Source of the DNA: Persicaria tinctoria
Lineage: Eukaryota; Streptophyta; Magnoliopsida; Caryophyllales; Polygonaceae
Direction: 5' to 3'
Assembly: GCA_037127255.1 (NCBI GenBank)
Contig: JBANSL010000001.1
Location: 31,118,501-31,182,500, forward strand
Length of the DNA: 64,000 nucleotides
The translations under genes and the position numbers were made by a program. The notes under the pieces are model-generated. The model was not told the DNA's origin, ran no database searches, and saw only the letters and a program-made list of their open reading frames with translations. Of the stretch, positions 8,926-64,000 are shown piece by piece. Position 1 is the first letter of the stretch. Each line of letters starts with the position of its first letter.

Positions 8926-8963
8926 AATTGGTATAAGATATTGGTTGTTGATTTCCGCCGAGA

Positions 8964-12744: not shown

Positions 12745-12746
12745 AG

Positions 12747-12763
12747 TGGTATCGGATTTCAGG
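12747..12763 (+). other. Primer-binding site of CRM-like element 1
   Basis: TGGTATCGGATTTCAGG begins 2 bp after the LTR end. The first seven bases match the initiator-tRNA-Met type (TGGTATCAGAGC) and then diverge. The equivalent site in element 2 starts TGGAATCGG. Confidence 0.55.
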
Positions 12764-20060: not shown

Positions 20061-20532
20061 TGATAATGCACATTTCATATATGCATTATATGTTTTTCTT
20101 ATTGCTTTTAGGTATTTGTTTTGCTATGTTTTGAGTCTAGTTCCGTTTGTTAATTGTGAAGTATTCGAGTTCGGAATCTATGCATTTTCAGTGTTTATTC
20201 TGCAGAATTACATTCCGACCTTGGATGGACTATGAAAAGAGCTTAAGAAGTATGTTTTGGAGCACATGGGAGCTGAGAAAGAGCTAAGAAAAAGCAAGGA
20301 GGTACGACTTTGGAATTCGTTGAAGGAAAATGAGGAACGACGAGCACCGTAGAGATGGCGTCCGCCGTTACCCCAGATCCCGAATACGCGGTTTTGGATC
20401 CGAAGACAATTAATTTATATTATTTCTATTATTTTCCTCTAGGGTTTTGCTGATCCTTGCGGACCTTATTTAGGATGTTTTCAGTTTATTCAGCCGGAGA
20501 GTGTGGTTATTGTGTGAAACTATGAACACCAT

Positions 20533-20591
<59 letters not shown>

Positions 20592-21394: not shown

Positions 21395-21401
21395 AACTTC
21401 T

Positions 21402-21417
21402 TGGCGCCGTTGCCGGG
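21402..21417 (+). other. Primer-binding site, tRNA-Asp type
   Basis: TGGCGCCGTTGCCGGG begins 7 bp after the LTR end. This is the tRNA-Asp complement used by Athila elements, and it supports the lineage call. Confidence 0.85.
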
Positions 21418-21487
21418 TAGAAGAAAGGAGTTTGCTTTTCTTTAACTCTATCAATTACTCTTTATTTTGAGTCTGTTTTGTCTTTGC

Positions 21488-26192: not shown

Positions 26193-27940
26193 AATTGTTC
26201 AGTCATTTGCTTCTTTCAAACCCTTTATTTTTATATTTTCATTGTTCCTTTTTGTGTTTTATGCATTGAGGACAACACAACATGTAAGTGGTGTGGGGGG
26301 GGGGGGATTGAAGTAAGTTAGTTAGGTTAGTGCATGTTTGAATTTATATTTGTCTTTGAGTTTTTGTTTTTGAGTCATTGATTATTTCCGTTATGTTATT
26401 TCTTTTATGTTATATAACATGTCAAAAAGAAAAAAAAAAGAAAATGTCGAAAAAAAAAAGTGATTTTTGTTTTGTTGTTTTGCATATTGTGTTGTCAAGG
26501 ATACCCATCTTGATTTGAGTTTGTCCTGGCATGATCTTATAAATCTCATGGAATTCTGGAATGATTTGATGTTATCTTGAAAATTGTTTTTTATGTGAAA
26601 TATGATTGAGCATATATAATTGAGCATGTATGATATAAGTTTGGGAGTATGCTTGGAATTCAACAAAAATTTGTCCCAATGAGATATTTTTGGCCTTATA
26701 AGGGATACATCTTTATTCCTTTTTCTTTTCTTGTGTGATATATGCATTTATCATTGAGTATTGCCATGGTTATCTATTTTCAAGGTCGATTATATACATG
26801 TTTAATGCTTGATAAGTTCAAATGATAGAGGCAAAATTTTAGCCACACATTTATCCATATCTACCATATGTTATATCTTGCTTTGAAGCCAATTTGAGCC
26901 TTTAGCCTTTTATTGTTAGCTCCACAAAATTATTATTCCTAGCCTATGATGAGCCTTACCCTTATTCCGCGGTAATTGAGATTTTGAATGGGTTATGGAA
27001 TCTATTTTGTAGATTGAGGAGAATGAAGCTAAACTGAGATTTTATGGTTTATGGTTTTGAGAAGATGTAATGTTATGTGCTTATTTAGTCACTCATGTTT
27101 ATGCATTTGATTTTCATGTATTGTGGATCAAGAAAAAAAAAGCTTGGACCTAGGGAGAATAAAATTCACCTATGGGTAAAAGTAAGTTAAAAAAAAAAGT
27201 AAAAAGAAAAAAAAATCCGAAAAAAAAAGAAAAGGAAAAAAAAAAAAGCATAAAGAGTCATTTATCTTATGTTTGCATAATGAGGAAGAATTGGGATTCA
27301 GGTTGGTTATGAGATACATTGGTTGGGTGTTGAGATTGCACTATATGTGAGATGATGAGATGTGAGATGTTTGGAGTTATTTTGATGATATTGAGAGATG
27401 TTGTGCATTTGTGAGCTTAATATATTTGAGTTGGTTTGTGTTATATTGGGAGTTTTGGAATCTTATTTTTTTGGAATTTATTGCACCACATGACCAAATA
27501 CAAGTCCTTGCCCTTATGTTTCTACCAAGCCCCATTACAACCCCGCCGAATGGAATCTTCTATAAAGGTTTCCATTGAGCGAAAGTCATCATCTTGATGT
27601 TTTTATTTTTTCATTGATGTATCCGGTGGAGATTTTGTGATATAAATGTCAATATTCTAGTTGATGCTTGCATATGGAATTGATGTGAGTGTATGCTTAA
27701 AGCCTAAACACATGAGAGTGAGAGATACACATTTTATCCTTAGTAAGGTTGATTTTTGAGCATGCAAGCAACTTGATCCCATATATACATGTTATGACGT
27801 TTATATGTTTGGTTATATTTTCACTATTGATGATGTTGCTTTTGATGAGTAAAGTTGTGAAAGATTTCTCGTGGGATGCGTAGATGATGTTTTTCCTTAT
27901 AGTTGCTTGAGCACAAGCAAGAGTTAAGTGTGGGGGGATT
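26193..27940 (+). other. Long 3' untranslated region of element A
   Basis: No gene. It holds the Athila landmark 'gcattgaggacaac' (26263-26276) followed by a 12-G run (about 26295-26306), and A-rich low-complexity runs at 26427-26459 and 27190-27247. It ends with the polypurine tract AAGTGTGGGGGGATT (27926-27940) directly before the 3' LTR. Confidence 0.75.
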
Positions 27941-28410
27941 TGATAATGCATATTTCATATAGGCATTATAGGTGTTTCTTATTGCTTTTAGGTATTGGTT
28001 TTGCTATGTTTTGAGTCTAGTTCCGTTTGTTACTTTTGAAGTATTCGAGTTCGGAATCTATGCATTTTCAGTGTTTATTCTGCAGAATTACATTCCGACC
28101 TTGGATGAACTATGGAAAGAGCTTAAGAAGCATGTTTTGGAGCACATGGGAGCTGAGGAAGAGCTAAGGAGGAGCAAGGAGGTACGACATTGGAATTCGG
28201 TGAAGGAAAATGAGGAACGACGAGCACTGCAGAGATGGCGCCCGCCGTTACCCCAGATCCCGAATACGCGGTTTTGGATCCGAAGATAATTAATTTATAT
28301 TATTTCTATTATTTTCCTCCAGGGTTTTGCCGACCCTGGTGGACCTTATTTAGGATGTTTTCAGTTCATTCAGCCGGAGAGTGTGGCTATTGTATGAAAC
28401 TATAAACACC

Positions 28411-28463
<53 letters not shown>

Positions 28464-29264
28464 GGCCTATGAGTTGCTAAACTCATAGTTTCGCCTGTGA
28501 TTCGAAGACATGGTTGTTTGGATTGTGAGGATTTGAGTTTATTTGATTATTCATGCTCTTAGTTATCATCTTGTGCTTAATTTATATTTGTGTTCCTTTC
28601 TATGCCTGATCAACATGTTAGGAATGACATCTCTAGCTATGAATTCGTTGTTGTTTTCTTGATAGCAAACAAAGGTATTGATGATAGTGATGTCTCTTTG
28701 TCTTTGTAGTGGATGATTTCAGTTGATCTATGTTGAGGATATTTGATTAAGATTGAGTTCGGTATGCACCTATTAGTCTTGATTGAATAGAGTGAATGTG
28801 CCAACTGGTCTTGATTACTTGAGTTCTTAATGCTATTCTCTAGTGATATCGAATAAGATGAGTGAATCTCTGCGAATCTCTCAACTTTAGTCAAATAGAC
28901 CTAAGAATATGAATAATTGATAAATCAAAGCGAGAACCATGAATTCCAACCATTGTCAGAGAATTACAGGTGAAATGTACTTTATGTCTTGATATCAATT
29001 TGTTTTGTTGTTTGTAATCTGGTTACTTTTATATTTTCTATTTGTCTAAAGGTTATTGCTTTTGCTTTAAAGAGTCGTGTCTAGAGTTATTGAGTAGGAA
29101 ATCGCTTCTCCCTGTGGGTTCGACACTAGACTTTCTTGCTATAATAGTAGTTATTTGGTTTATCAATTAATTGATTGCCTAATCTATTGGTTGTGTGTTT
29201 ATGTTTGGATTTTTATCACTAGTTTAGGAAGGGCGAAATTGCGAACGACATTCGTCCCGCATCA
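27941..29264 (+). repeat. 3' LTR of Athila-like element A
   Basis: Starts TGATAATGCA right after the polypurine tract and ends CCCGCATCA. It carries the (GA)n tract at 28413-28461 and the GC-rich block at 28222-28284. Confidence 0.9.
28413..28461 (+). repeat. (GA)n microsatellite in the 3' LTR
   Basis: About 24 GA units, the counterpart of 20534-20588. Confidence 0.95.
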
Positions 29265-29269
29265 ATGCC

Positions 29270-43389: not shown

Positions 43390-43616
43390 TAAATAAATAC
43401 AATTCCATGGCGTTTCTAAAATGGCATGGAATGTGCAACTTTTGATTTTTTTTTTAATTTGTAAAGATATCCATGGCGTTTGTCAAAATGCCATAAAAAG
43501 TTTGACTAAAAGACGGCGTCGGCTTCGACGGCGTTGAGGCATGGCGTTGAAAAACGCCATGTTTATGTTTTTATGGCGTTTTTTAAACGCCGTAGAAGGG
43601 TATATCTGTACTAGTG
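43390..43616. repeat. CACTA right subterminal repeat region
   Basis: Repeated 'catggcgtt' and 'aacgcc' motifs in both orientations up to the terminus. They mirror the left end but without the 82-bp tandem unit. Confidence 0.85.
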
Positions 43617-43695
43617 TCATATGCGTCAATCCGACGAACGAGGACTCGGGAAAGTGCGTTTCAAGAACATAGCAGAATGCTGAGAACTGAAGAGT

Positions 43696-43907
43696 GGTCG
43701 ATATTGGTCAATATTGACCTAATCCTGGTCGAAAATCTCCAGATCGACTCGAGTTGACCAGCAGACAAGAAGACAACTCGATATCGACATGTTTTGGTCG
43801 ATATCGACCAACAAGCACTCGATATTCTTCCAGGAACCGAGATCGAGTGAGCTGAAGAGAAGCTGAGAAGATAGCTCGATATCGAGCAACTCTGGTCGAT
43901 ATCGACC
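43696..43907. repeat. TCGATATCGA palindrome array 1 (LTR upstream part)
   Basis: Exact copies start at 43778, 43798, 43876 and 43896, with variants at 43698, 43708 and 43728. Pairs are 20 bp apart. The copy at 43798 lies in an 18-bp perfect palindrome, TTGGTCGATATCGACCAA (43794-43811). Confidence 0.9.
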
Positions 43908-44158
43908 AACTACTAGGTAACGAGTGTAGGTCGATTATGAGTTCTATTCCGAGTCCTAGCTCAAGATTCCAAGAGAAGATTTCTTGCACATGAAGACTTT
44001 AGATTTTCTATCCTTTCATCTATCCTAAGGGTGGAACATTTAATTACCCTATAGGATTTATCTTGTTTACCTAAATTAGATTTATTTATTTTCAAGTAGA
44101 ATTATATCCTTAGATAGAATATAGAATTTCCTTACCTTGGCTAGGAAGGATTAAGGCC

Positions 44159-44166
44159 TATAAATA
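44159..44166 (+). promoter_or_regulatory. TATA box in element B LTR
   Basis: TATAAATA after a 'ggattaaggcc' stretch. About 50 bp downstream is a purine-rich leader. It lies between palindrome arrays 1 and 2, so array 1 is upstream of the likely start of transcription and array 2 is within the transcript. Confidence 0.5.
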
Positions 44167-44732
44167 AAGCCCATGAGGCTAGTTTTTATTCATTCCAAGC
44201 TAGAGAGGAGAGAAGTAGAGAGAAAGAGAGAGTGGAGGCCGAGTAGGGGCAAGGAGCGAAAGTTATCTGGCTTCGATCGGTTGTAAGCTTTGGTTTATTT
44301 TAATGCAATTTAGTTTTCTTTTATTATTGATGTCTTTCCCTACGATGAAGAACGAGTAGTCCACCTACTTCTAGGGTCGGGGTGAGCCCGACGATAGCCA
44401 AGCGTGTTTGAGGTAAAGATTGGACTTTTATCAGGCTTTGATCATCCAGTGCCTTTATATGTTTATTACCTATTTAATAGAGATTCAGGTTAACAACTTG
44501 GATTATAAACATAAAATTGGTAAATACAATTAGGGTTTCTTGAGACAGTTGTCTAATTGTTGGAAAAGGCGAAAGCTTGATCCTTTGATGTGATTGCATG
44601 CTTATTCCTCTTTATCTTGCCTTATGCATGTTTGGTTATCGTTCTTGCAAACCCCGATCTTGGAAGTTTTCTTTTACATAGTTTATTTCAAAATCTACGA
44701 ACTTTGTCTTTTATTTCGTTTTCTGCGCCTAC

Positions 44733-44938
44733 TCGATTTTGACCAACAGTGGTCGATATCGACTTCTAATTCTCGATCCAGAAAGATCGTTGCTTGTTTG
44801 TGTTTTTGCAGGTACAGGTCGAAATCGAGCGAACCGGTCGATATCGAGTGACCTGGTCGAAATCAACTACCTTCTGCACATAAACCAGAAAATCGACTGG
44901 ATTTGGTTGATATCGACTAACCGAGGTCGATATCGAGT
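44733..44938. repeat. TCGATATCGA palindrome array 2 (LTR downstream part)
   Basis: Exact copies start at 44753, 44838 and 44927. Variants at 44733, 44773, 44819, 44857 and 44907 keep 19-20-bp steps from their neighbours. Confidence 0.9.
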
Positions 44939-45126
44939 AGATTCCCTGAGGTTGAAATTTGAAGTGAGACATCCGCTACCTGAGATCCACTGACCCGCTT
45001 CCTCGAGGATCGAACCTGACTTCCTTTTGCTGCATCAGGAGGAAGTTTTGTAATTATCTGCGTGGGCACGAATCTAGTTTGATTTATTTTATTATATTTT
45101 GAACTCGATTTCCTCATACAAAAAAT

Positions 45127-45140
45127 TGGCGGCGTTGCAC
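45127..45140 (+). other. Primer-binding site, degenerate tRNA-Asp type
   Basis: TGGCGGCGTTGCAC lies 6 bp after the LTR end. It matches the Athila site TGGCGCCGTTGCCG at 12 of 14 positions. Confidence 0.6.
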
Positions 45141-45194
45141 GAAAAGCAATCATTCGCGCCTTAGATAGTTAGATCTCACGTTTTCCTTTAAGTT

Positions 45195-46734
45195 TTGTTT
45201 TGTATGTGTATGCGCCATTCTGGTCAACCACTTGAATTTGACGCCTTAGACGACCCGGAACGTCTTATACACATCCACTCAAGATTGAAAAGGATCATGG
45301 CGACCGCCGAAATACAAGCCCAGACGATCGAGAGGCTCCAAAGGGAGCTAGAAGGCAACAATGCTGCTCTCGCCGCTGAGAGAGCACGCACTGAGTAGGA
45401 AGCTGAACTAAGGAGGCAGGCAGAGGCTGAGCTTGCCCAATACCCTACCACTGCCGAGGACTACATGCACCCGACTCTTGTGGTGCCTGAATCGGCTATT
45501 CTAGTCCCTCCTAATAACTTTGAAATTCGCACTGTCTTCCTTATTGAAATTAAAAATAATGCTTTTCAAGGAAGATTTAATGAATGCCCTCTCGAACATA
45601 TTACTACTTTTTCTGATATGTGTCAAACTCTTACTAAAGGTACTACTCTTGAATATGTAAAAATGAAGGCTTTTCGCTGGTCTCTTGCAGGTCTAGCATT
45701 GAAGTGGTTGAAGGTCTCCCTGCGCAATCCCTCACAACATGGGCAGAGGTTAGGAATACGTTCCTCAACAAGTTCTTTCCTCCCGCCAAGACAGCGCTCC
45801 TCCGCCAGAAGATCACTGCTTTCAAACAAAACCCTGGGGAGCCGCTAGCACGAGCATTAGATCGATACGCCCCACTCATGGGCAGCCATCATATGTCATT
45901 CAGGAGATTTTTTACAATTCTCTTGATTTGGCTGCCAAGGAAAAGATCAATCAGTACACACAATATGAGTATCTGACTCAGATACCGGTAGAGGCATGGG
46001 CTACTATCAAAAGGCTCACCAACTTCGACAACACGTATGGGGCTCCTGCAAATTACGATGAAAACACCTATGCCAGGCCAACCCCATCCATATGCCCCTC
46101 TACGAGCCTCCTAAGGAGATTGATCCAGATGTCATGGAGCAGTACTACAAAGATCAGAATCGCAAGCTCCTCAAGCAAGTCATGTTTCTTTCTGTCAACC
46201 AACCCTGCATTGAATGTGGCTCACAGCGGCACACCACTCTAGAGTGCCCACATACAGAGTAAGTTAGGATGGCAGAAACTCACGAGGAGGTAGCTTACGC
46301 ATGGCGTCCCAATCGCTATATGGGGGACCAACGGTTCCATCAACCACAATGGAATCAAGGTGCCCCTAGGAACCCTCCACCATACAGAGCTTCAGGACAT
46401 CCAGAAAGGGACCAGTGGAAGGATGATCTACAAATGATCCTCGATGAAATGAGGAGAAACCAAGCACAACAGCAGCAATCTACAAGCGCCATCCAGACTC
46501 AACTCCATGGCCTCAATACACGACTTGGGGAGATAGATATCTGGAAGAAGAACTTGGAGACCCAAATGGGTCAACTCGCACAACAGATCCCAAGACCAGC
46601 CGGAAAGCTCCTTGGGCACACATATCCCAATCCTAAGGGGCAATCCGGACACGTCGCTGCTGTAAAGCTCAAGAGCGGTCGCGAACTGCATGAACCAGAG
46701 ATCGGAGAAGCAAACGACGGCACCGCAGAACAGG
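45195..46734 (+). pseudogene. gag of Athila-like element B, several frameshifts
   Basis: The N-terminal part has a coiled-coil-like stretch (IQAQTIERLQRELEGNNAAL) and a TAG at 45396-45398. The Athila capsid region follows (FRWSLAGLALKWLK, then SLTTWAEVRNTFLNKFFPPA). Frame changes near 45710 and 45870 break it. A CX2CX4HX4C knuckle, CIECGSQRHTTLEC (about 46209-46250), is intact but followed by TAA at 46260. The C-terminal part has the Athila LETQMGQLAQQI motif (about 46555-46590). Gag would form the particle. At least four lesions prevent a complete product. Confidence 0.8.
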
Positions 46735-46910
46735 TCGATATCGACTAACCACTGGTCGATATCGACCAACCAATGGTCGATATCGACCACCCTTAGGTCG
46801 ATATTGACCAAGTTGCACCAGTCAACTCAATTTCGGCCCGAACAGTCAAAATCGACCAATCACAGATCGATATCTGTGATCGATATCGAGCAGCCTCCAG
46901 TCGATATTGA
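46735..46910. repeat. TCGATATCGA palindrome array 3 (gag-protease linker)
   Basis: Exact copies start at 46735, 46756, 46777 and 46880. Variants at 46798, 46867 and 46901. The first four sites are exactly 21 bp apart, and so are 46880 and 46901. In the coding frame each exact copy reads Val-Asp-Ile-Asp, so 21 bp keeps the frame. Two stops in this stretch (CAA or CAG changed to TAA or TAG) interrupt it. Confidence 0.9.
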
Positions 46911-46980
46911 ATCTTCTGCATTGCCTCCAGCAGCCGATTCCACTCCGAAACCAAAAAAGACGCTCCCTTTCCTTCCAAGG

Positions 46981-47590
46981 CGATAAAAGATCCCACTGTA
47001 GGTAAGTTTAAACGCTTTGTTAAAATGCTTCATGAACTAAATGTTTCAATTCCTTTACAGAAGCTCTTCAAGAGATGCCTGCATACGTCAAGTTCCTCAA
47101 GGAGATCGTTAGCAATAAGCGATCAATCTCAGAAATTGCCGGCGACCGCAAAAGGATGGACTTCCCTGAGAAGAGACCTGACCCTTGTAAATTTTCAATT
47201 ACTGTGGGATTCGGAAAATATAGATATGAGGCATTGTGTGATCTAGGTGCAAGCGTGAGTATCATGCCCTTATCAATCTGGCAAAAGGTAAAGATAGGAT
47301 CTACAGAGCATTTGGATGGCAAGCTATACATGGCAAACAATACAGTGGTCATCCCTACAGATATGGTTTATAATGTCCTTGTCCAGGTTGGTAAGTTCTA
47401 TATTTCTGCTGATTTCCTTGTTATAGATTGTGCGGAAGATGCTACTTGTCCTATTATTCTTGGTAGACCTTTTCTCGCTACTACAGATGCTAATATCAGC
47501 GTCAAGAAGCGATTTCTCACCTTCACGATAGGCGGATATTCCATGGCTGGAGGTGAAGAGCATAGGCAACTACAAGGCAACAACGGATGA
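46981..47590 (+). pseudogene. Athila-type aspartic protease of element B
   Basis: A short linker (MLHELNVSIP, about 47025-47054) and a frameshift near 47055-47075 precede a frame of 171 residues. It begins MPAYVKFLKEIVSNKRSI and contains ALCDLGASVSIMPLS (about 47232-47276) with the catalytic Asp intact, and IILGRPFLATT near 47455-47485. The protease core is therefore better preserved than in element A. The frame ends at 47590 in TGA. A palindrome array follows at once instead of a reverse transcriptase. The protein would process Gag. Confidence 0.8.
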
Positions 47591-47607
47591 AAGCACCAGA
47601 GAGCTCC

Positions 47608-47760
47608 TCGATATCGACAAGCCCAACTCGATGTCGACCACCCAACTCGATATCGACCAATCATACTCGATATCAACCTCTTATGCTGAGCTCTGAACCT
47701 GCCAGAAGCCTAAGTATGGGATCCCTTCACTCGATATCGACCAGGTCAGCTCGATATCGA
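47608..47760. repeat. TCGATATCGA palindrome array 4 (after protease)
   Basis: Exact copies start at 47608, 47647, 47731 and 47751. Variants at 47628 and 47667. Steps are 20, 19, 20 and, after a gap, 20 bp. Confidence 0.9.
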
Positions 47761-48732
47761 CCAACCCTTGGCCCGAAAATTGTTGCTTTGGGCACGAAAA
47801 GGTAAGATAAGGTACAATCCCTACTCCTCCTCCGTCCATTAATAAAAATAAGATTTTTAGAGGAGATAAGGCCCCGTGGCAAGCTAACCTGCGCATGACT
47901 AGGACTAGAAAGAAGAAGAAGGAAGGTAAATGACTCTACGCAAACAACCACCTATCAACGGAGCTTGCATACTACAATCAGGACCTAGATGATCCAAGAG
48001 AAGGGCCAAGCACAAGAGGGCCCCACATTAAGGGTTCTTAAGCACAAGCGGAGAAGTCGGCCTAGCGACTCTAAAATCTAGAACATGTACATAAAACTTT
48101 TGAATTTTCTTTAGGACTTTATAACTTATGGTTTTGGTTTTGGTTTGAAATACTTCATGTGGGAAATCTTGTCTTCTTGTGAAAGCTAACATTTTTCGGG
48201 TCGAAAACACGGGGATCGAGTGACACTGTCGGACCAACCTGGTCGATATCGACCAATACTAGTTGATATCGACCTCTGAGGCAATTTCGATCAGAAGTAG
48301 AGAAGGATAAAGCAGGTCGATTTCGACCAACCTTACTCGATATCGAGTTAGTTCGTCGATATCGACCAAAACCCCTAATTTTGACCAGTTGATCACACAC
48401 GGAATCTAACGAATTGCAGTCGATATCGAGCTCTATTTGGTCGATATTGACTTCTGGCAATCTACTGCAGCCTAATTTCAACCCTACAGTGCGTTATTCG
48501 GTGAGTTCCTTCCGTTACCCTTGTTTTGTTTGATTTTCATACAGTGGGGACACTGTATATTTTAAGTATGGGGTGGGGGAAGAGCTCAATATCATTATCA
48601 TTATTGTTTTATTCTTCATTTTGCTACTACATGGTAAATTTTGAGTGAATTTTTAATTTTTGAGCTTAGTTGCTAAACTCAAAGTTTGTTTTATGAGACA
48701 TCTCCCAAAGCTTGTAAATTGTTCAAATAAAA
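47761..48732 (+). other. 3' non-coding part of element B
   Basis: No reverse transcriptase, integrase or other gene is seen. It contains array 5 (48243-48450), the Athila 'gtggggacactgta' landmark (48545-48558) and the purine run ATGGGGTGGGGGAAG (about 48569-48583). It ends where the CRM-like LTR was inserted at 48733. Confidence 0.6.
48243..48450. repeat. TCGATATCGA palindrome array 5 (3' non-coding)
   Basis: Exact copies start at 48243, 48337, 48356 and 48420. Variants at 48263, 48317 and 48441. Steps of 19-21 bp again. A 14-bp perfect palindrome, GGTCGATATCGACC, lies at 48241-48254. Confidence 0.9.
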
Positions 48733-49743
48733 TGATGCGGGACCATCCAAGCCACCTCCGGACACACCTATGATTCGAGCTCGTGAGAATGATGTCATCC
48801 TCAAGAGGAAGAAGAAGGCTCCACCATGGGAGAAGATCCAAAGGTGCAAATGACGATTTAGACTCTCGTTCAGAATATTTGACAGCTTTTCGACGTCTCT
48901 GTAAAACGGGTCGTACGGATTCAATATTTATCGGATTGAACCGTTCCATACCTTGCCTGAACGAGGACGAAGAGATCTACCACTTTTCTGTTAAAGGTTG
49001 TTTCAGATTCAACATGGAGCTTGGCCGAAAATCGCATTATTTGCAAACTGTCACTGTTTTGACGGGATTAAAGAACTTTCCTTATTGCTATTTTTAGAGA
49101 CATTATTTACTTATGTTATTTTAGGTAATTTACGGAGTTATTTTAATTAGTCTTTTTTTTTTTTCTAAAATCAGCCCTAGGTTTTCTATATATTGACGGC
49201 TGATCATTGTAGAGAACTTACGCTTCCATTGAATAGAAATTTCCTTTGTGTGAAACACAATGAGAGAAAGTCGATTGAATAGAGTTGTGCTCTTCAATTG
49301 CAACTATTGGTATTGATCTAGCTTTGTTTGCTTTGTGTTCATCAACTTCGCAAGACTTGGCGATCCTAGTATCCACAAGCCCCCTCCTTGTGCCTTCAAG
49401 TTGTCCGCTTGGTTGTGTAGGGTTGTAGAGGCGGGTTATATAGTCATTGGTATTGGTTTCTACCCTCTTAGGAGGTCTGGGGTCTTTATCTTGTTCTATA
49501 TAGATCAACTCGGTCCTTATCAGTCGTGTCTTGTTATCAATTTCGAGTCTTTCTTTATTGTCGAGTCTTGTTCTTGTTTCTTGCATCGAGTCTTGGTCGA
49601 TCTTGAGGTTTCTTGATCAATTCTTTAAATCTTCTTGCTGCGTCAGTTTCGTTTCTTTGAGTTCTTGATCTTTCTTGCTTCCGTTCTTTAGTTTCTTGCT
49701 TGTTTGTCAAAGATCGGGCCATCTCACGGCTAACCCCGTATCA
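48733..49743 (+). repeat. 5' LTR of CRM-like element C
   Basis: Starts TGATGCGGGACC and ends CCCGTATCA, 1011 bp. A CTATATAT box lies near 49187. TCGAGTCTTG repeats occur at 49543, 49561 and 49586. It matches 63695-64000, with divergence rising toward the end of the overlap. Confidence 0.85.
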
Positions 49744-51577: not shown

Positions 51578-52851
51578 ATGTCGAGTGGGCATCAGCAAGG
51601 GTGGCGCCAATCTCGGCCACAACAACCCCAAGGGCGCTCGGATACGGGTTTTAGAGAGCGAGCTCAGCAGCCCCAAGGGAGGAGTGAAAGCCGACAGCCC
51701 CAGCAGCCCCTCGACAAGGGTAAAGGTCCATGGAATGGACGTGAATCGTCTGGGACATCTACTGGTCCCAAAGGGAGTAATCCTAACCCTTCTACCACTC
51801 GTTCTAGAGATATTGTATGCTTTAAATGTCAAGGTAGAGGCCATTATATGAAGGATTTCCCTAATAAGAAAACTCTCATGGTTAATCACTTAGGAGAATA
51901 TGAATCTGAAAATTCTTGTGATGAACATGATGAGCATGCTAATGACAATGATCAGAATCTCAACCTTGTATGTTATGATAATGATGATGATGAGGTCAAA
52001 TATGAACATGGAGAATCTTTAAATGTTATGAGAGTTTTAAGTGTTGTTCCTGCACCATGTGATGATAATCAAAGAGAAAACTTGTTTCATACTCGTTGTC
52101 TAGTTAAAGGAAAGGTTGTAAATGTGATCATTGATGGTGGTAGTTTTTGTAATTTAGCTAGATCTTATAAATTGCATTGGATGAATGATTGTGGAAACTT
52201 GAAAGTGAATAGGCAAGTGAAAGTGCATATTAAACTAGGACATTATGAAGATGATGTTTTATGTGACATTGTGTCTATGCAAGCTTGTCATATTTTATTA
52301 GGTCGTCCTTGGCAATTTGATCGTAAGGTCCAACATGATGGTCATAGTAATAGATACTCCTTTACTTTTCAGGGCAAGAATGTCATTCTCAAACCCATGA
52401 TGCCTACACAAGTGGCTGACGAGATTGAGAAGCGCAAGGTAAGTAAAGGTGAGTTAGATAAGGCGGCTCAGTCGAGCCAAGTGGATCCCCCTAATCGGCC
52501 TAAGGGTGTGTTTTTGGCTTCCAAAAGCACATTCATAGACGATTATGCGGATGGAGAAACCACCCTTATGCTTCTTTGTAAGAGCTTGAATATGTTGAGT
52601 GATGAGCTTAAAGCTTCTCTTCCATCAAACATACTCGCTCTACTTGAGGAGTATAAATATGTGTTTCCCGATAACATACCAGCAGGTCTACCCCCTATAC
52701 GTGGAATTGAGCATCAAATTGATCTTATTCCAGGGGCTGCCTTGCCTAATAGGCCTGCTTATCGTACGAATCCCACTGAGACCCAAGAGGTCCAAACCCA
52801 AGTCCAGGAAATGTTGGATAAGAGTTATATTAGAGAAAGTTTAAGTCCTAG
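51578..52851 (+). pseudogene. Nucleocapsid, protease and RT start of element C
   Basis: The frame begins in a Gln/Gly-rich linker. The zinc knuckle reads CFKCQGRGHYMKDF: Phe replaces the last cysteine of CX2CX4HX4C. The protease has VIIDGGSFCNLA but then jumps to SYKLHWMNDCG, lacking roughly 19 residues found in related proteases. HILLGRPWQFDR is present. The RT begins IRGIEHQIDLIPGAALPNRPAY and stops at RESLSPS (52851), where element 2 entered. The same frame continues into element 2's LTR until 53107. The enzymes would process Gag-Pol and copy RNA. Knuckle and protease are damaged. Confidence 0.8.
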
Positions 52852-54110
52852 TGATGCCGTTCAATTATCGATGACTCCTGGTGACATTGAGGACAACATG
52901 AAGGTTCCATTTGATGACCCTGTCACTCGTGCAAGGGCCAAGAAGATTCAAAATGCAACTAAGGCCTTTCTTGTCCGTCACCATGGAACTTTAGATCAAG
53001 GGTTCAGGCCACCCTGGATCACTTGGCTCAAGGTTACACCACCAGCACCGGAAGTGAGCTTGCGTCCACACTCAGAGCTCATGAAGACTCATCAGCATCC
53101 CCCATGACTCACCATGACTCGTCATCTCCATGGAAGCACTCGGCCGAGTGGATCAAGGGAATGTCGAGTGGAGTATTGGGCTTGGCCGAGTGATCTCTTG
53201 TGGGCCGAGTTACATTAGTCTTTAATTAATTTGTTATTTTATGCAATTAGTTAAATAAGGTGGAAATTAATTATATCTCTTCTAGAAATATTACTTAGCC
53301 ACCAAGTTATTAAATATCTATCTTCTTAGGAATTATTTATCTTAAAGTTATTTCATTTATCTTTAGATAGAATTAATCTATCTAAACCCCTTTCCTTTGC
53401 AAGGAAGAATTGGTTAGATCTCTCATAGTTTTCCTATAAATTCATGTTATGTACTTTGATTTAATCAGATTGAAATAGAATTGAAGAAACCCTTTATGGA
53501 TTAAGGGTTCTTCGATTGTCAATCAAAAGCTCTTGTGTTCTAAAACTTTCGGCAATCACAAATCACCAACCCTAACCTTGTTCTTATCGAGATCGAGGAA
53601 TCCCAGCCATCCCCTAATCGACATAGCCGACGCCTCCGAAGGACTCAAGGCCTTGGCGACGTCCACATGCAGCATCGCTCCTAGCGAGCGCGGACACCTG
53701 CTTCCGCGTCCTCGCTCTCGCTCCCGCGGTGCCCAGGCGCCCTCGTCCGCGTGCTCCTAGGCGCGTCACTCGCGCGCTCGCCCTCACCCTCGCTCCAAGC
53801 GAAAACCCTGCGCGCATCCGGACACCCGCACACCCTGAGGACCCGTGTCCTATGTGTCCGAGACCCGCGCGCCAGTCCTCGCTACATTCCTCGCTGTTCT
53901 TCGTTTTAGTTTTCTGTCGCTATTTCTCAGTTTCCAATTACTGAAATTACAAAGTGTTGAAATCTGTCGCTAAATCAGAATTCTAATTACTTGTTTGAAT
54001 TGTTCCAAATCAGGAGATATCAAAGAGAATTGCAAGATCAAAGCAAATATACGGCGTGGTTCTTGATCTGAAGCCCACAGGCGAAGAATCGGGTATCCCA
54101 AACGTATCAA
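52852..54110 (+). repeat. 5' LTR of CRM-like element 2
   Basis: Starts TGATGCCGTTCAA and ends AACGTATCA. TATA box at 53435-53442. A GC-rich segment lies at about 53640-53890. Phased CCGAGT/TCGAGT motifs start at 53144, 53164, 53186 and 53205. Its first 256 bp are coding in the equivalent 3' LTR. Confidence 0.95.
53435..53442 (+). promoter_or_regulatory. TATA box in element 2 5' LTR
   Basis: TATAAATT, conserved in all three LTRs of the family. It probably drives element transcription. Confidence 0.55.
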
Positions 54111-54112
54111 GT

Positions 54113-54129
54113 GGAATCGGATTTCAGGT
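54113..54129 (+). other. Primer-binding site of CRM-like element 2
   Basis: TGGAATCGGATTTCAGG begins 2 bp after the LTR. It is not a perfect match to the initiator-Met site. The same site in element 1 reads TGGTATCGG. Confidence 0.55.
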
Positions 54130-55147
54130 TAATGCAAGTTCTTTACTCTCTTGATTCTTTAATTGAGTGATTTATTTTTCGTGCCTTATTTTTCACTATA
54201 GCCGCTGCATAAAAGTTGAATCTTTTTTATTCACCCATCAAAATTGGCACTTTATTTTTGTTATTCTTTGTTTGGATCTATAATTTGGAAGATATTGAGT
54301 TCTTGACTGCAAGTTGTGATCTTTTATTCCTAGTTGCTACATATCATGCCTATGATTGTGATTCTTGGATTAAAAGCATTATATAAAATTGCACCACTAA
54401 AGAACCCTATTTTTTTTCCAGTTTCTAGCTTATTTTTCCCTATTTTCTTTATTTTTGCTTACTTTTAGATCATCATAGCTTATTATTTTTTTTCTTGCTC
54501 TTAAATTTCCGGTTGCTACCTCCATATTACAGCAGCTTGTTCATCATATATATATTAAAAAAAAAACAGAAAAGCCGAGCCTAAATTAAAAAAAAAAAAA
54601 AGAGCATTCCTTCATTACATTGTTGAGTTAGTAACTCTTCCTTGTTAGTTCTTTGATTGCTACATGTTAGATGATCTAAACGGTTTTAAGCATTACAAAA
54701 GAACCCTGCTTTTGTGATTTTGTGTTGTGCCGACACTGGAGCCTTGGTCACACCCCTCTTTCTCTGAACCGTGTTGCAACCGTCAGATAATAGTTGACGG
54801 AGTGTGTGCACTTGATTGCCCTTGTGATTGCTATTTTCGATACTTACACATTCATATTATTCAAGCATCACATTGTAGATCTTATTCTATACACATTCAA
54901 CCGCTTGTTTATACTTGTTATCCTTGATATCCGACTTGTGGTTGATTTAAATTGCAATTTGATTATTACTTGTTGTCTTCAATATTGCAAAATTCGGTGT
55001 CCAGGGGAATTGCTTGAATATTGTGCCTTGTTTTCTCGCTCTTTGATTTCTAAAACTTGAATCACTCTTAGGAATCACTAGAGCTTGCATTACTTGGTTT
55101 CTGGTTTTTGCTTCGTTTACTTGTTGCTCTTCTGATATTGTAGGAAC
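54130..55147 (+). other. Leader of CRM-like element 2
   Basis: About 1 kb, AT-rich and non-coding, conserved with element 1. It includes the inverted repeat CCGTCA ... TGACGG at 54780-54800. Confidence 0.65.
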
Positions 55148-56595
55148 ATGTCGAACGATAGCGACCCCAACTCTTCCCCTACCCCATCTGCTGGCATTTC
55201 TGCTGATAATATGCGGTTCATTATTGACTCTGCTGTCCAAGAATCTACTTTGGTTTTCCGTAAGGATATGGCAGAGGCTGAAAATCGTCGGGCTATTGAA
55301 CGCCAGGAGGACCGCGTATTCTGGTCTAACCTCATCAAACAGGCAGTTACGCGACAAATTGAGGAGGCAAAACAGGCGGAGGCTTCTGGATCTACACCTC
55401 CCTCTGGAGGTAGGCCGCCCCCACCACCTACGGCTCCTACACCTCCTTCGGGTAATGTCCCACCTACATGTAACCCTTCTGGTTCAGTTAACCCTCCCCC
55501 TTCTGGTCAATTACATTATCAACTTAAGTCTGCTACTCCTAATCATTTCAATGGAGAGAATGACAACGATCAACTAGCGAGCTTCAACGGACACCAGGAT
55601 CGCCGTGAACATACTCCACCACGGCATCAGCAAGGGAGGCCCATTCAGCGTCAGCAGTAGCAGCCGTTTCATACCCGTGCTAACTGGGATGACAGCCGCA
55701 GCAACAATGATCTTTATGAGACGCCACATCTGGAGGATGCTTACCATGAGGTAAATCCTAACTTTGATTATTTACCCCCTCCTAATTTTGGTCATCCTAG
55801 ATTTGATAATGCTCAAGCTATACAAAGACGAGATGTAAAGCTTAAATTAGAAACCTTTGATGGTAATACTGATCCTGAAGCTTATCTTGTTTGGGAAAAT
55901 CATACTGACTATCTTCTTGAACATTTACGCTATGAGGAAACAGAGAAGTTGGAAGTTGTTATATTGCATTTAGTAGGTAAAGCTCGCACCTGGTGGTTCC
56001 GCACTCGTGAGATGGGCCGTCGTCAGGACAAGCAACCTGTTGAGACTTGGCCACAACTTCGCCATCTCCTGAAAAAGAGACATGTGCCTGAGGAATACAC
56101 TGAGTCCATGAGGATGCAATTGGCGACCCGCCGCCAAGGGACTCGCTCTCCTAATGAATACAGGGATAAGCTGGAACAACTCTCCCATCAGGCTAATGTT
56201 TATCTGACTGAACGTGCTTTGTGTACACAATTTCTTGCTGGTCTTAATATTTCTATTAAAAATCCTTTATCTATCCACTCTATTAGAGATATTAACACTT
56301 TGACTCATAAAGCACAGTTGATGTATGAGCAACAGCAGCAGCAGCTTTGGCTACAACGGAACCGAGTTGACCAAACCTCTCAAGGTCGCAGGTTTGTTCC
56401 CTTTAACTCTCCCAGTCAATCTAAACCTTCTACTTCTAACCCTTCTATGCAGCAAAAGGGAGTTTCCAACTCACCTCAACAAGGTTATCAGGTTGAAACT
56501 AGAAGAGTTGATGCACCATCTACAGATCGCAACAAAGACATCCGCTGCTTCACTTGTGGTGGTTCTGGGCATGTCTCTCGGAATTGCCCTCTAAA
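55148..56595 (+). pseudogene. gag of CRM-like element 2, broken
   Basis: ATG 55148 (MSNDSDPNSSPTPSAGIS) opens a Pro-rich N-terminus. A TAG at 55658-55660 replaces a glutamine codon. The frame then stays open through KLETFDGNTDPEAYLVWE, the capsid block (WPQLRHLLKKRHVPEEYTES), FLAGLNISIKNPL and an intact zinc knuckle, CFTCGGSGHVSRNC (about 56546-56587). A 1-bp deletion directly after the knuckle (about 56590) shifts the frame, so the protease is read in another phase. Its lesions differ from those of element 1. Confidence 0.9.
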
Positions 56596-57048
56596 AGGAA
56601 GGTTCTTCTCAATGATTTGGGAGACCATTATTACGAGGAGGAGACTGCTGAGGACCTTGTAATTTCGAGTGAAGTGGAGGAGGACCAGTCGACTGAGCCT
56701 ATTGAGGAGATCGATACTTCCCAGTACGACAAGTTGCTTTGCATTATCAATCGACGGGTCCTGCACATTCAGGAATCTCCCATGGCTAATCAAAGGGAGA
56801 ACATATTCCACACAAGATGCATGGTTCGCGAAGCTACCTTAAGCCTTATCATCGACGGTGGGAGTTGCTGCAATCTCATCAGTGAAAAGGTAGTAAATTT
56901 CCTCTATTTACCTACTACTCCTAGAGCTAGTCACTATGGTTTAAATCGCATTACTGATGATGGTTCTGATATTTTGGTCATCAAAAAATGTTTAGTTTCC
57001 CTTTCAATTGGAACATAGCATGATAAAATATTATGTGATGTTGCTCGC
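56596..57048 (+). pseudogene. Protease N-terminal half of element 2, with nonsense codon
   Basis: Reads LLNDLGDHYYEEETAEDLV, then ENIFHTRC and LIIDGGSCCNLIS, the DGG-type catalytic motif. It continues to SLSIGT. A TAG at 57016-57018 interrupts it (TAT to TAG compared with element 1). The same frame resumes at once and continues into pol. Confidence 0.85.
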
Positions 57049-60000
57049 ATGGATTGTAGTCATATATTGTTAGGGCGTCCTTGGTTATATGATCGTTCTG
57101 TTCTTCATGATGGTCGTGCAAATACATATACTTTCACCTATGACGGGAGGAGAGTTACTCTCCTACCCCTTTCGCCACAAACTATTCTGAAGGAACAGGT
57201 TCGCAAGCAGCAACAAAGGAACGCCGACAGAGAATCTGAAAGATTGGAGAAGCTCAAAGGTAGCTCGACTGAACAAGCCGCCCCCACGGCCCAGCATGCC
57301 GCGCCCGCGGCCCCAGCAGCAGCGCCCGCAACCGCCCCTGCAGCCCCCTTGCCGCCTTCTCCTCCCCATTCGACGTCACCTAAGCCCTCTTCTGCATCAC
57401 TTAAGGGCTCTGTGGAACGTCGATATTTGGTCTCTCACCCTCAGCAAGGGACCATCACCTGGAATGCTCATCGACCTCATATTCTTCTGGTCATGAAACA
57501 GGTATTACTTAATGTTGAATTGACTCATATTCCTGCACCTATTGCTGCTCTTCTGCAGGATTATTTGGATGTGCTTCCAACTGAACTACCTCAAGGCTTG
57601 CCTCCTATTAGAGGTATTAAGCACCAGATTGACTTTGTGCCTGGAGCAGCCTTGCCTAATCGCGCCGCTTATAGAGCTAGTTCTGAGGAAACAAAGGAGC
57701 TGCAACGCCAAGTCACAGAATTGATGGACAAGGGCTTTGTTCGAGAAAGCCTCTCTCCCTGTGCCGTGCCTGTCATTTTGGTTCCAAAGAAGGATGGCTC
57801 CTGGCGCATGTGTGTTGATTGCCGCGCAATCAACCAAATAACGGTTAAGTATCGCCACCTCATTCCTCGTTTAGATGATATGCTTGATGAACTTCATGGT
57901 GCTGCTATTTTTTCTAAAATTGACCTTAGAAGTGGATATCATCAAATTAGGATAAAACAGGGTGATGAATGGAAAACGGCTTTTAAAACTAAGTATGGCT
58001 CATATGAATGGTTGGTAATGCATTTTGGTTTGACAAATGCACCTTCTACTTTTATGAGGCTTATGAACCATGTGCTTAGAAGACACTTAGGAAAATTTGT
58101 CGTTGTCTATTTTGACGATATCTTAATCTATAGTAAGAATATGCATGATCATTTAAGTCACTTAAAATTGGTCTTTGATTGTCTTAGGAAAGAGAAATTA
58201 TATGCCAATTTAAAGAAGTGTTCTTTTACATCCGAGTCTACCATTTTTCTTGGTTTTGAAGTGACTGCATCTGGATTGAAGGTGGATGAGGAGAAGATTC
58301 GTGCTATTCAGGAGTGGGCCAGGCCGACTACACCCACTCATGTCCGCTCATTCTTGGGCCTTGCTGGCTTCTATCGACGTTTTGTCAAGGACTTCAGCCT
58401 AATTGCCGCCCCCCTACATGAGCTGACGAAGAAAGATGTGACATTTCGCTGGTTTGACTCACATCAAAAGGCTTTCGACGCCCTCAAGGACCGCCTAACA
58501 CACACCCCAGTGCTCCAGTTACCTGACTTTGCTCAACCTTTTGAGCTCGAGTGTGATGCTTCTGGCACTGGCATTGGAGGGGTCCTGCTGCAGCACAAGC
58601 GTCCCATCGCCTACTTCAGCGAAAAGTTGGGCACCGCTGAGCTCAACTATTCTACCTACGACAAGGAGCTATTTGCACTGGTTCGCTGCTTACAGACTTG
58701 GCAACATTATCTCTGGCCTAAGGAGTTTGTGATTCATTCGGATCATGAAGCTCTGAAGTACCTCAAAGGACAAGCAGTGCTCAGCAGGCGACTTGCTCGA
58801 TGGGTGGAGTTTATAGAGACCTTTTCCTATGTGGTTCACCACAAGAAGGGAAAGGATAATGTGGTAGCTGACGCGCTATCACGCAGGTATGTCCTCTTAA
58901 ACCATATGGATGCACATGTGTTGGGTTTTGCTTCGATAAAGGAACTGTATGCTTCTGATAGTTTCTTTAAAACTATATATGCTCAATGTGTGTCCACAGG
59001 TGAAGTTGATTCATATTTTGTTGATAATGGGTATTTGTTTAAGATGGGAAAGCTTTGTATCCCATCTTCTTCTATTCGCCGATTGTTAACCCAAGAAATT
59101 CATGAATCTAGGGGACATGGGGGTTTCGAAAAAACCTTAGCTGGACTAAAGGAACACTACTTTTGGCCTAAAATGTCTAATTATGTGCTGAGATTTGTCA
59201 AAAGTTGTGTTACATGTGCTAAAGCCAAATCGAAATCCAATGCTAATGGTCTATACCAACCTTTGCCTATTGCTAATGCACCCTGGGAAGATGTTTCTAT
59301 GGATTTTATTGTAGGACTGCCTAGAACTTCTAAGGGTCATGATTCCATATTTGTTGTTGTAGACAGATTTTCCAAAATGACTCATTTTATTCCATGCCAT
59401 AAAACTGATGATGCTATTCATGTTGTTCATTTATTCTTTAAAGATGTTGTTCGCTTACATGGATTGCCATTGTCTATAGTTTCTGACCGTGATCCTAAAT
59501 TCTTAAGCTCTTTTTGGAAAACTCTATGGTCTAAATTGGGTACAAAATTGCTATTTTCTACTTCTTGTCACCCACAAAATGATGGCCAAACTGAGGTCAC
59601 CAATAGAACTCTTGGGGCTCTCCTTAGAGTCATGCTGCGAACTAACCTCCGGAGGTGGGAAGACTGCCTACTATTTGTAGAATTTGCGTATAACAGGTCT
59701 AGGCACTCTGCAACAAAAATGACCCCCTTCGAAGTAGTATATGGCCGAAATCCTTTAACTCCAGTGGACATGATGCCTCGGCCATATAAGGACAAGGAGA
59801 GCGTGGATGCAGCTAAGCAAGTGGACTTCATCAAAAGCTTGCATGAGCGTACCAAGGCGCAACTGGAAAGGAAGACTGTGCAATACAAAGCCGCAAAGGA
59901 CAAGCATCGCAAGGATGTGCAGTTCAACGTTGGTGATCTGGTCTGGCTGCATCTCAGGAAAGAAAGGTTTCCGCAACAACGGAAATCTAAGCTGGACCCC

Positions 60001-60435
60001 AGGGGAGATGGACCATTCAGAGTGGTTCAGAAGATGGGTCCTAATGCATACAAGCTGGATCTCTCTGCCGATAAGTACAGCGTCCATTCTACATTCAACG
60101 TCGCCGATCTTTCCTTGTTCGTGCCTGACGATGACTCTGACGACGATTTGAGGACAAATCGAAGTCAAGTGGAGGAGAATGATGCCGTGCAATTATCGAT
60201 GACTCCTGGTGACATTGAGGACAACATGAAGGTTCCATTTGATGGCCCTGTCACTCGTGCAAGGGCCAAGAAGATTCAAAATGCAACTAAGGCCTTTCTT
60301 TTCCGTCACCATGGAACTTTAGAGCAACGGTTCAGGCCACCCTGGATCACTTGGCTCAAGGTTACACCACCAGCACCAGAAGTGAGCTTGCGTCCACACT
60401 CAGAGCTCATGAAGACTCGTCAGCATCCCCCATGA
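57049..60435 (+). CDS. Pol of CRM-like element 2: protease end, RT, RNase H, integrase, LTR-encoded tail
   Basis: An uninterrupted frame of 1128 codons. Order by residue: protease end HILLGRPWLYDR (~4-16); Ala/Pro-rich linker (~75-115); RT from ~185, with catalytic YFDD at ~354-357; RNase [12 protein letters not shown] (~500-512) and [10 protein letters not shown] (~563); integrase zinc finger HESRGHG ... CVTC (~684-723); integrase core Asp in MDFIVGL (~752), Asp in SDRDPKF (~811) and Glu in DGQTEV (~848), with HPQT changed to HPQN; C-terminal GPNAYKLDL (~1005). From residue ~1044 the frame is inside the 3' LTR and adds an 85-residue tail with GPVTRARAKKI. Such LTR-encoded tails are known in the CRM group of centromeric chromoviruses. 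Its start is only the first Met after the upstream stop, so alone it is not a functional polyprotein. Confidence 0.9.
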   Translation: MDCSHILLGRPWLYDRSVLHDGRANTYTFTYDGRRVTLLPLSPQTILKEQVRKQQQRNADRESERLEKLKGSSTEQAAPTAQHAAPAAPAAAPATAPAAPLPPSPPHSTSPKPSSASLKGSVERRYLVSHPQQGTITWNAHRPHILLVMKQVLLNVELTHIPAPIAALLQDYLDVLPTELPQGLPPIRGIKHQIDFVPGAALPNRAAYRASSEETKELQRQVTELMDKGFVRESLSPCAVPVILVPKKDGSWRMCVDCRAINQITVKYRHLIPRLDDMLDELHGAAIFSKIDLRSGYHQIRIKQGDEWKTAFKTKYGSYEWLVMHFGLTNAPSTFMRLMNHVLRRHLGKFVVVYFDDILIYSKNMHDHLSHLKLVFDCLRKEKLYANLKKCSFTSESTIFLGFEVTASGLKVDEEKIRAIQEWARPTTPTHVRSFLGLAGFYRRFVKDFSLIAAPLHELTKKDVTFRWFDSHQKAFDALKDRLTHTPVLQLPDFAQPFELECDASGTGIGGVLLQHKRPIAYFSEKLGTAELNYSTYDKELFALVRCLQTWQHYLWPKEFVIHSDHEALKYLKGQAVLSRRLARWVEFIETFSYVVHHKKGKDNVVADALSRRYVLLNHMDAHVLGFASIKELYASDSFFKTIYAQCVSTGEVDSYFVDNGYLFKMGKLCIPSSSIRRLLTQEIHESRGHGGFEKTLAGLKEHYFWPKMSNYVLRFVKSCVTCAKAKSKSNANGLYQPLPIANAPWEDVSMDFIVGLPRTSKGHDSIFVVVDRFSKMTHFIPCHKTDDAIHVVHLFFKDVVRLHGLPLSIVSDRDPKFLSSFWKTLWSKLGTKLLFSTSCHPQNDGQTEVTNRTLGALLRVMLRTNLRRWEDCLLFVEFAYNRSRHSATKMTPFEVVYGRNPLTPVDMMPRPYKDKESVDAAKQVDFIKSLHERTKAQLERKTVQYKAAKDKHRKDVQFNVGDLVWLHLRKERFPQQRKSKLDPRGDGPFRVVQKMGPNAYKLDLSADKYSVHSTFNVADLSLFVPDDDSDDDLRTNRSQVEENDAVQLSMTPGDIEDNMKVPFDGPVTRARAKKIQNATKAFLFRHHGTLEQRFRPPWITWLKVTPPAPEVSLRPHSELMKTRQHPP

Positions 60436-62880: not shown

Positions 62881-63700
62881 ATGTCTAATAACCAAGGCAA
62901 CGACTGGTTCAGTACCACCATGGAGATCTTAGCTAAGATGGATAAAAGCTTTACGGCAATAGAGCTTCAGCGTTTTGGCTCTAATACGGTGTTTGGACAA
63001 GGAGTCCCACCTAGAGATGACGTGCCACCAATTGAAAGGGAAGAAACTCATCCTATTGTTAACCAATATAATGTTTCTTCTAGCATAGATAATTATCTTA
63101 TTGTTAAAAATGTAGAGCATGTTGATAATAATGATTAATATCTTAATTTACTTGCCTATGATCATAATGATTACATTGAATATGAGCATGATGATTCTTT
63201 GATTGATTTAAATGTTCAACCTACACCTTGTGATGATAATCAAAGAGAAGATTTATGTCATAGTAAATGTTTAGACAAAGGCAATGTTTCTAATATGATC
63301 ATTGATGGTACAAATTCTTCTACTATTGCTAGCCTTGAATTAATTGAAAATTCAGCCTTGAATTAATTGAAAATTCAGCCTTGAAAAAGGATGAAAACTT
63401 GCTAGCATTGGATGGAAACTTAGGGATGAATGACCAAGCTAAAGTGCATATTAAGTTAGAACATCATGACGTTGTTATGACATCTGAATTATGCACTAAT
63501 CAAGTTTCTTTTCTTGATTTTATAGATGAAGCTGAGACAACAACCATCGAGGAGTGGTCAATCCCTAAAACAATCGTTCTTGAGATGAGTTTCCATGGGC
63601 ATAAGGTTTTCAATCCAGGAGCTCGTGTGGATGTCTTTGCGAAATCATATGCGACCTTGGATTCGAGGACGAATCCTTTTCAAGAAAGGGAGAATGATGC
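62881..63700 (+). pseudogene. Collapsed retroelement ORF of gag, protease, RT and C-terminal pieces
   Basis: ATG 62881 (MSNNQGNDWFSTTMEILAKM) resembles a gag N-terminus and runs to 63138 (TAA). After a short stretch it shows NQREDL and NMIIDGT, a degraded protease motif in the place of DGG. It then has AKVHIKLEHHD (protease middle), ELCTNQVSFL (RT palm, compare [12 protein letters not shown] at about 61903 in element C) and DSRTNPFQERENDA, the pol C-terminus just before the LTR. Capsid, knuckle and most of RT, RNase H and integrase are missing. A 23-bp tandem duplication at 63332-63377 also breaks the frame. It looks like a non-autonomous relative of element C. Confidence 0.65.
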
Positions 63701-64000
63701 GTGACCATCCAAGCCACCTCCAGACACACCTATGATTCGAGCTCGTGAAAATGATGTCATCTTCAAGAGGAAGAAGAAGGCTCCACCATGGGAGAAGATC
63801 CAAAGGTGCAAATGACGATTTAGACTCTCGTTCAGAATATTTGACAGCTTTTCAACGTCTCTGTAAAATGGGACGTACGGATTCAATATATATCGGATTG
63901 AGGCGTGCCATACCTTGTCGGAAGGAGGACGAAGAGATCTACAACTTTGTTGTTGAATGTTTTTCCATATTCGACATGGAGCTTGGCCAAAAATCGCATT
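63695..64000 (+). repeat. 3' LTR of element C, cut by window end
   Basis: Starts TGATGCGTGACC right after a pol-end sequence. The first 306 bp align with 48733-49040, with roughly 10 percent difference concentrated after ~150 bp. Confidence 0.85.

Follow-up and report, generated by a model that had tools for sequence, protein, structure and literature searches.

Arrays of a TCGA-NN-TCGA palindrome in gag-protease retroelements of Persicaria tinctoria: putative docking platforms for a dimeric DNA-binding protein

Results

A retroelement fragment with five palindrome arrays

The window analyzed here, a stretch of 64,000 nucleotides (nt) of Persicaria tinctoria DNA whose positions serve as coordinates below unless another stretch is named, contains a long terminal repeat (LTR) element with dense arrays of the palindromic 10-mer TCGATATCGA. 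An exact search found 19 copies, all at 43778-48420, each at a start listed in a preliminary description of this DNA, and, as that description held, none outside the array-bearing element. In 100 dinucleotide-preserving shuffles of the window, the mean was 0.03 copies and the largest count 1. With up to one mismatch, we found 30 sites compared to 1.56 expected, 28 of them in 43778-48450 and two outside (53587, 62567). Nine one-mismatch and eight two-mismatch sites in 43600-48650 add up to 17 near-matches, where more than ten had been claimed, and 19 of the 35 successive distances between sites with up to two mismatches were 19-21 base pairs (bp), consistent with the spacing described. Extension to longer palindromes, attributed to many of the sites, turned out to be infrequent: 5 of the 19 exact copies reach the 14-mer GGTCGATATCGACC and one reaches the 18-bp TTGGTCGATATCGACCAA. 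Genome-wide, TCGATATCGA occurs 132,258 times in the 1,680,257,829-base assembly, compared to 1,675 times for its reversed-letter control, likewise palindromic but free of CpG; thus, the 10-mer is enriched both over shuffled sequence and genome-wide.

The arrays lie at five places in the element, as the preliminary description had it. The 5' LTR (43616..45124, + strand, ends approximate; 43617-45124 aligns at 81.8% to the 3' LTR of L017, the closest copy found) carries array 1 on its U3 side (43698..43905; exact sites at 43778, 43798, 43876, and 43896, with near-matches from 43698), a TATAAATA-like, TATA-like stretch recognized by eye at 44159, and downstream of it array 2 (44733..44936; exact sites at 44753, 44838, and 44927 plus near-matches). 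A segment of this LTR, 44975-45115, is a conserved anchor in other copies. After the LTR comes a putative primer-binding-site-like stretch, 45127..45144 (+ strand), read by eye. There follows a broken gag region (45201..47114, + strand), which tblastn with the open reading frame (ORF) of stretch L011 resolved into pieces in several frames (45201-45710, 45713-45886, 45766-46092, and 46077-47114). Array 3 (46735..46910; exact sites at 46735, 46756, 46777, and 46880 plus near-matches, with 21-bp steps inside) occupies the gag-protease linker, and an open frame at 47036..47590 (+ strand) encodes an aspartyl protease, matching PF13650 with an E value of 7e-05 and 23.9 bits, which is below the curated cut-off of 24.3. 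Array 4 (47608..47760; exact sites at 47608, 47647, 47731, and 47751 plus near-matches) comes after the protease, and array 5 (48243..48450; exact sites at 48243, 48337, 48356, and 48420 plus near-matches) lies in the 3' region before a purine-rich stretch at 48570-48581.

The last stretch common to L017 is 48557..48731 (+ strand; 84.7% to L017 6400-6573), and likeness to L017 ends at 48731, where another repeat starts. This repeat (48731-49038) recurs at 63693-64000 with 92% likeness, and it starts exactly where the array-bearing element is cut off. No 3' LTR of the element was found within the 64-kb window, and a reverse transcriptase was found neither in the element nor in the array-bearing gag-protease stretches compared with it; the element is a 3'-truncated fragment without a polymerase. 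Its gag-protease part is homologous to gag-pol proteins of plant Ty3/gypsy elements, in that its pieces match the L011 ORF, which itself matches 16 proteins, several of which carry PF03732 and PF13650 or reverse transcriptase domains. The name Athila, used in the preliminary description, is a tentative label for an element with no reverse transcriptase by which to place the lineage.

Occurrence in other stretches

We compared the window element with other stretches, of which L007-L018 and L034-L037 were picked around or between listed TCGATATCGA places and thus were not site-blind. Another 11 stretches were chosen blind to the sites (L020-L026 and L038-L041, the latter four taken near mid-contig in hope of arrays), and two of them, L039 and L040, contained arrays; L034-L036 have two to four sites each. 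The window element and the array-bearing gag-protease stretches L011, L012, L014, L016, L017, and L040, all of them pieces of at most 10 kb, gave no polymerase match. L007 has a polymerase-like match at 7623-8999 on the + strand and an LTR anchor on the - strand, and because the two lie on opposite strands, this match probably comes from another element. In viral contigs, the exact site pair is present in seven stretches; no relatives of the protein P0002 were confirmed in viral contigs, nor relatives of the L011 ORF in genome contigs.

The L011/L012 locus (G000:C1:1794000-1813800) is a head-to-tail LTR-internal repeat of ~6,670 bp with units ~99.5% alike, and carries an open 1,091-amino-acid gag-protease ORF in which the protease is joined to a further C-terminal piece; we take this piece to resemble the C-terminal part of integrase. 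In L015, a satellite-like tandem array with a period of ~91-93 bp (4341-6283) stands beside array-bearing elements. The window itself holds a second gag-protease LTR element (20061-29265; LTRs 93.4% alike), in which we found no palindrome array and no polymerase match, and two copies of a polymerase-bearing LTR element (11536-18730 and 52849-60110; 88.7% alike) without TCGATATCGA.

The repeated unit has a family-dependent center

Comparison of the sites revealed that the true unit is broader than TCGATATCGA: it is TCGA-NN-TCGA, usually flanked as T-N-S...S-N-A. Among 97 distinct sites with a TA center, S occupies -1 in 92 and +1 in 93, while T is found at -3 in 66 and A at +3 in 70. Likewise, T at -3 and A at +3 occur in 52 and 53 of 57 sites of the GA set and in 22 and 26 of 28 sites of the CA set.

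The center NN depends on the family and is mostly, but not always, common to the arrays of one element. In the window element, 19 of 22 sites have a TA center; the corresponding counts are 20 of 24 for L017, 26 of 29 for L016, and 23 of 24 for L015. Separate arrays of TA elements have the same center. CA/TG leads in L011 (16 of 27) and L037 (6 of 14), and GA/TC in L014 (17 of 25), L007 (12 of 17), and part of L013 (9 of 16); L039 has CC/GG in 10 and GA/TC in 8 of 20 sites, and L040 is mixed. This sorting of centers by element scored 134.7, compared to a largest value of 74.0 in 2,000 permutations, with some loci being related copies. Both orientations are present in non-TA families (in L014, for instance, 11 TC and 6 GA). 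Thus, the motif is not the property of one element, as had been described, but of a group of families with different centers.

Sites are spaced at about two helical turns and outlast their spacers

In 125 of 188 cases from 11 loci, the next site downstream, counted up to a distance of 130 bp, lies 19-21 bp away; in 11 cases it lies at 22-35 bp. The gaps between clusters were examined for clusters with an exact site each in 11 stretches, with L012, L015, L017, and L034-L036 left out; these 61 gaps of 24-140 bp gather near 54, 64, 74, 84, and 93 bp. In a scan of periods from 6 to 16 bp, the best was 9.8 bp (next best 9.4-10.1; scan-wide jitter null 0.0005), and the Rayleigh P at 10.5 bp was 1e-4. 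Phasing of the inter-cluster gaps at about one helical turn is moderately supported.

Such phasing, together with a core rich in CpG, is also what might be seen if flexible steps and CpG at ~10-bp intervals set nucleosome position or methylation at the chromatin level, with no specific reader. We consider this very unlikely, since the fixed TCGA-NN-TCGA core with its T and S flanks is far more specific than rotational positioning requires, and since retention of CpG in the sites (see below) is weak.

The window element and L017 are 81.8% identical in the LTR, 87.0% in gag-protease, and 83.1% in the 3' region. With gaps set aside, site columns are identical in 90% (LTR), 93% (gag-protease), and 81% (3' region) of cases, compared to 77%, 76%, and 72% for spacers within 40 bp and 88%, 90%, and 88% for the remaining columns. 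As site columns are more identical than the nearby spacers, the spacers evolve fast and the sites less so. Sites in register number 13 of 15 in the LTR, 7 of 8 in gag-protease, and 9 of 13 in the 3' region. CpGs of the window element were kept in L017 at 31 of 40 positions inside sites compared to 99 of 155 outside (P = 0.13), and those of L017 were kept in the window element at 33 of 38 compared to 96 of 145 (P = 0.016).

More distant copies (L011, L014, and L016) are ~70-78% identical to the window element in gag-protease and share short anchors with it elsewhere. The arrays between the anchors do not align, yet all five intervals hold sites in both L016 and L011; in L016, which lacks an anchor at the LTR start, the first array is assigned solely from its position upstream of the TATA-side anchor. 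The preliminary description had proposed that related copies be checked for a motif and spacing kept while intervening DNA diverges, and this is the pattern seen, with five places kept around unalignable arrays. It had also named family members without the motif or phase as grounds for rejection; other members carry both motif and spacing.

We considered that the arrays might have no present function: tandem duplication of palindromic units, together with gene conversion or template switching, would have produced them as a by-product, and a burst of non-autonomous elements would have spread them. Duplication does contribute: short tandem repeats of 19-21 bp are recognized at three of the five array places, L039 has 104-bp units still similar by eye, sites have been gained and lost between the window element and L017, and a tandem LTR-internal array of ~6.67 kb exists. 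A single tandem expansion, the other ground for rejection named earlier, nevertheless does not explain why sites outlast spacers between the window element and L017, why five places are kept in families whose arrays cannot be aligned, or why sites fall in different reading frames with non-codon steps. We therefore regard absence of function as unlikely.

DNA, RNA, or peptide

The arrays might be read at the level of DNA, RNA, or peptide. If the word were kept for the acidic VDID/VDVE repeat that it encodes in the gag-protease linker, the sites would be constrained through protein. Linker sites do share one frame (6 of 7 in L011 and 5 of 5 in L014), with steps of mostly 21 or 18 bp. However, arrays 1, 2, and 5 of the window lie in LTR or 3' noncoding DNA, and the 16 sites of the intact 1,091-amino-acid L011 ORF are spread over frames 0, 1, and 2, a single one being in frame 2. 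Close neighbors among them stand 18, 19, 20, or 21 bp apart, and the sites in frames 0 and 2 encode other peptides. A peptide repeat was therefore rejected as a general cause; it is contradicted outside the linker, can only add constraint inside it, and as an account of the arrays is extremely improbable. The gag-protease linker contains different repeated peptides in P0001 and P0002, relatives from other sources (42% identity), which hints that different repeated words may exist at this place in other plants; that a palindrome underlies these peptides is conjecture.

Alternatively, site pairs might act as hairpins, or the palindromes might pair between RNA molecules, for packaging, dimerization, or small-RNA production; the genomic RNA of LTR elements includes U3 and R/U5, and so would include the arrays there. 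On the + strand, each of the five arrays gave a better fold than dinucleotide shuffles did (z from -4.1 to -13.6), and two of them, 43690-43930 and 46720-46930, also fold better than with shuffled spacers (z -2.8 and -5.7), whereas the other three do not (z -1.1, 0.2, and -1.4). In addition, centers are complementary in 17 of 55 non-TA pairs, compared to 12.0 expected (P = 0.024), with TC..GA accounting for 11.

RNA self-pairing predicts covarying flanks, and hairpins between neighbors predict longer stems. At ±1, flanks were complementary in 116 of 250 sites compared to 114.0 expected, with no covariation; at ±2 there were 78 compared to 67.4 (z 1.6), and at ±3 there were 169 compared to 157.0 (z 2.9). 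Stems are not extended: inner closing pairs occur in 52 of 103 cases (47.4 expected) and outer closing pairs in 24 of 103 (44.9 expected). Pairs in L039 are often direct (CC..CC or GG..GG), and Rfam gave 0 matches in 43500-48700. A stem that tolerates G.U predicts strand-asymmetric decay of CpG, for which we counted 10 C-to-T and 7 G-to-A changes, an uninformative difference. RNA hairpins are thus weakened as a candidate by the absent covariation at ±1, the unextended stems, and the direct pairs of L039, and we think a role at the RNA level quite unlikely. RNA dimerization or packaging, one of the two ideas in the preliminary description, is disfavored by the lack of ±1 covariation and because shuffling the spacers leaves the folding of three arrays no worse. 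That the flanks adjoining the core are symmetric yet do not covary, that stems are not extended, and that three reading frames are used speaks for a dimeric protein bound to double-stranded DNA rather than for pairing of RNA or a peptide repeat.

Discussion

The sites, their five places, their spacing and symmetry, and the family-specific centers can be read directly from these elements. We lean, with modest confidence, toward the view that the arrays are putative docking platforms on double-stranded DNA for a symmetric, dimeric, sequence-specific protein. Of the two ideas proposed in the preliminary description, such a platform is better supported, because the flanks are symmetric and do not covary next to the core, sites are spaced at 19-21 bp, gaps are phased at ~10 bp, three reading frames are used, and both orientations occur. 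That the protein binds, that it does so as a dimer and cooperatively, and that this benefits the element is what we infer from these features.

The putative dimer would bind two TCGA half-sites that flank the 2-bp center, with outer preferences for T-N-S and S-N-A and a footprint of ~16-18 bp. Successive dimers would follow each other every ~20 bp along a single face of the helix, with clusters spaced by further whole turns. The arrays are kept at five places in gag-protease elements without a polymerase in the stretches seen. A family-dependent center would be expected if the sites track a changing binding protein, and the benefit would be LTR transcription or relief from silencing.

Several observations weigh against a platform of this kind. 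The R/U5 arrays of the CA-family elements L011 and L037 have five different centers and no CA; these mixed arrays, together with the two that fold well with their own spacers, are what limits our confidence. The excess of complementary centers also counts here, because a symmetric dimer does not predict facing pairs, and the TC..GA excess may reflect a preference of asymmetric sites to face each other. Conservation of the sites in the 3' region falls below that of the remaining columns (81% compared to 88%), because L017 lacks a counterpart of four of them, those at 47608-47667. The excess retention of CpG in sites is seen in one direction only, and there is no difference in L015 compared to L016. 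The phasing is weaker in two other sets of gaps, namely 96 looser gaps (best period 10.5 bp; null 0.0032, for 10-10.6 bp only) and 63 hand-thinned gaps (best period 9.8 bp; scan-wide null 0.039); in the latter, P at 10.5 bp was 4e-4 for GA families and 0.022 for TA families, while CA families showed no phasing (P = 0.52). Moreover, the loci behind the phasing statistics are related by descent, and the 104-bp units of L039 are duplicated.

Two known systems resemble the arrays in part. RM boxes of Sireviruses (Ty1/copia) are family-specific palindromes with many copies upstream of the TATA box and internal copies before ENV, for which a regulatory role was suggested, and their core is CGG-CCG in all but Tnd-1 of 13 (PMC2829016). 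As with RM boxes, the arrays here place many palindromes upstream of the TATA box in the LTR and others in internal DNA. The RM boxes are in copia elements and mostly have the CGG-CCG core, whereas the arrays here are in Ty3/gypsy-type gag-protease elements and have a TCGA-NN-TCGA core; unlike RM boxes, as far as that account goes, they also occur within coding sequence and on the downstream side of the TATA-like stretch. They are spaced at 19-21 bp, whereas the portion available describes no helical phasing of RM boxes (PMC2829016). Maize Sirevirus LTRs have palindromic structures in the control region that are linked to small RNAs (Bousios et al. 2016, as summarized in PMC10760457); these too are in an LTR control region, but of copia elements.

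The targets of VANC21 in VANDAL21 DNA transposons are dense motif arrays that were spread by tandem repeats and are read by a sequence-specific protein. VANC motifs are nonpalindromic, in one orientation, and mainly noncoding, the elements encode the reader, and related families differ in motif letters (PMC5735166). Both systems have dense arrays of a family-specific motif within one element group. The VANC21 motifs have a single orientation, whereas the core here is palindromic and non-TA families have both orientations; VANC21 targets reside in DNA transposons with a self-encoded reader, whereas here the elements are LTR elements and the reader is putative. RM boxes are the nearest description and VANC21 targets the nearest mechanism, and the arrays miss a defining feature of each: identity with either fails because there is no CGG-CCG core and there are no same-orientation motifs. 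A weak insertion preference for palindromes has also been described, with Athila among the significant families (PMC6911290). Literature searches, judged largely by title, found no description of this motif; of 31 papers that contain the exact 10-mer, none of the 20 listed concerns retroelements by its title.

By analogy with VANC and VANDAL, a dimeric protein from, or captured by, an autonomous LTR element might read family-specific TCGA-NN-TCGA codes and so, acting in trans, preserve the capacity for expression of thousands of gag-protease elements that have no polymerase; protein and sites would co-evolve, so that each family would answer to its own code. We offer this as a speculative extension of the docking platform, and a doubtful one.

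If a protein does read the sites, a single binding code would be present in this genome more than a hundred thousand times. The code variants in sister families would then be a natural experiment on the co-evolution of selfish elements and DNA-binding proteins, and the arrays would bear on how elements without a polymerase stay active. An idea known from VANDAL DNA transposons would extend to LTR elements, and it would be a test of whether Sirevirus-type palindromes and the arrays described here are two cases of one control strategy.

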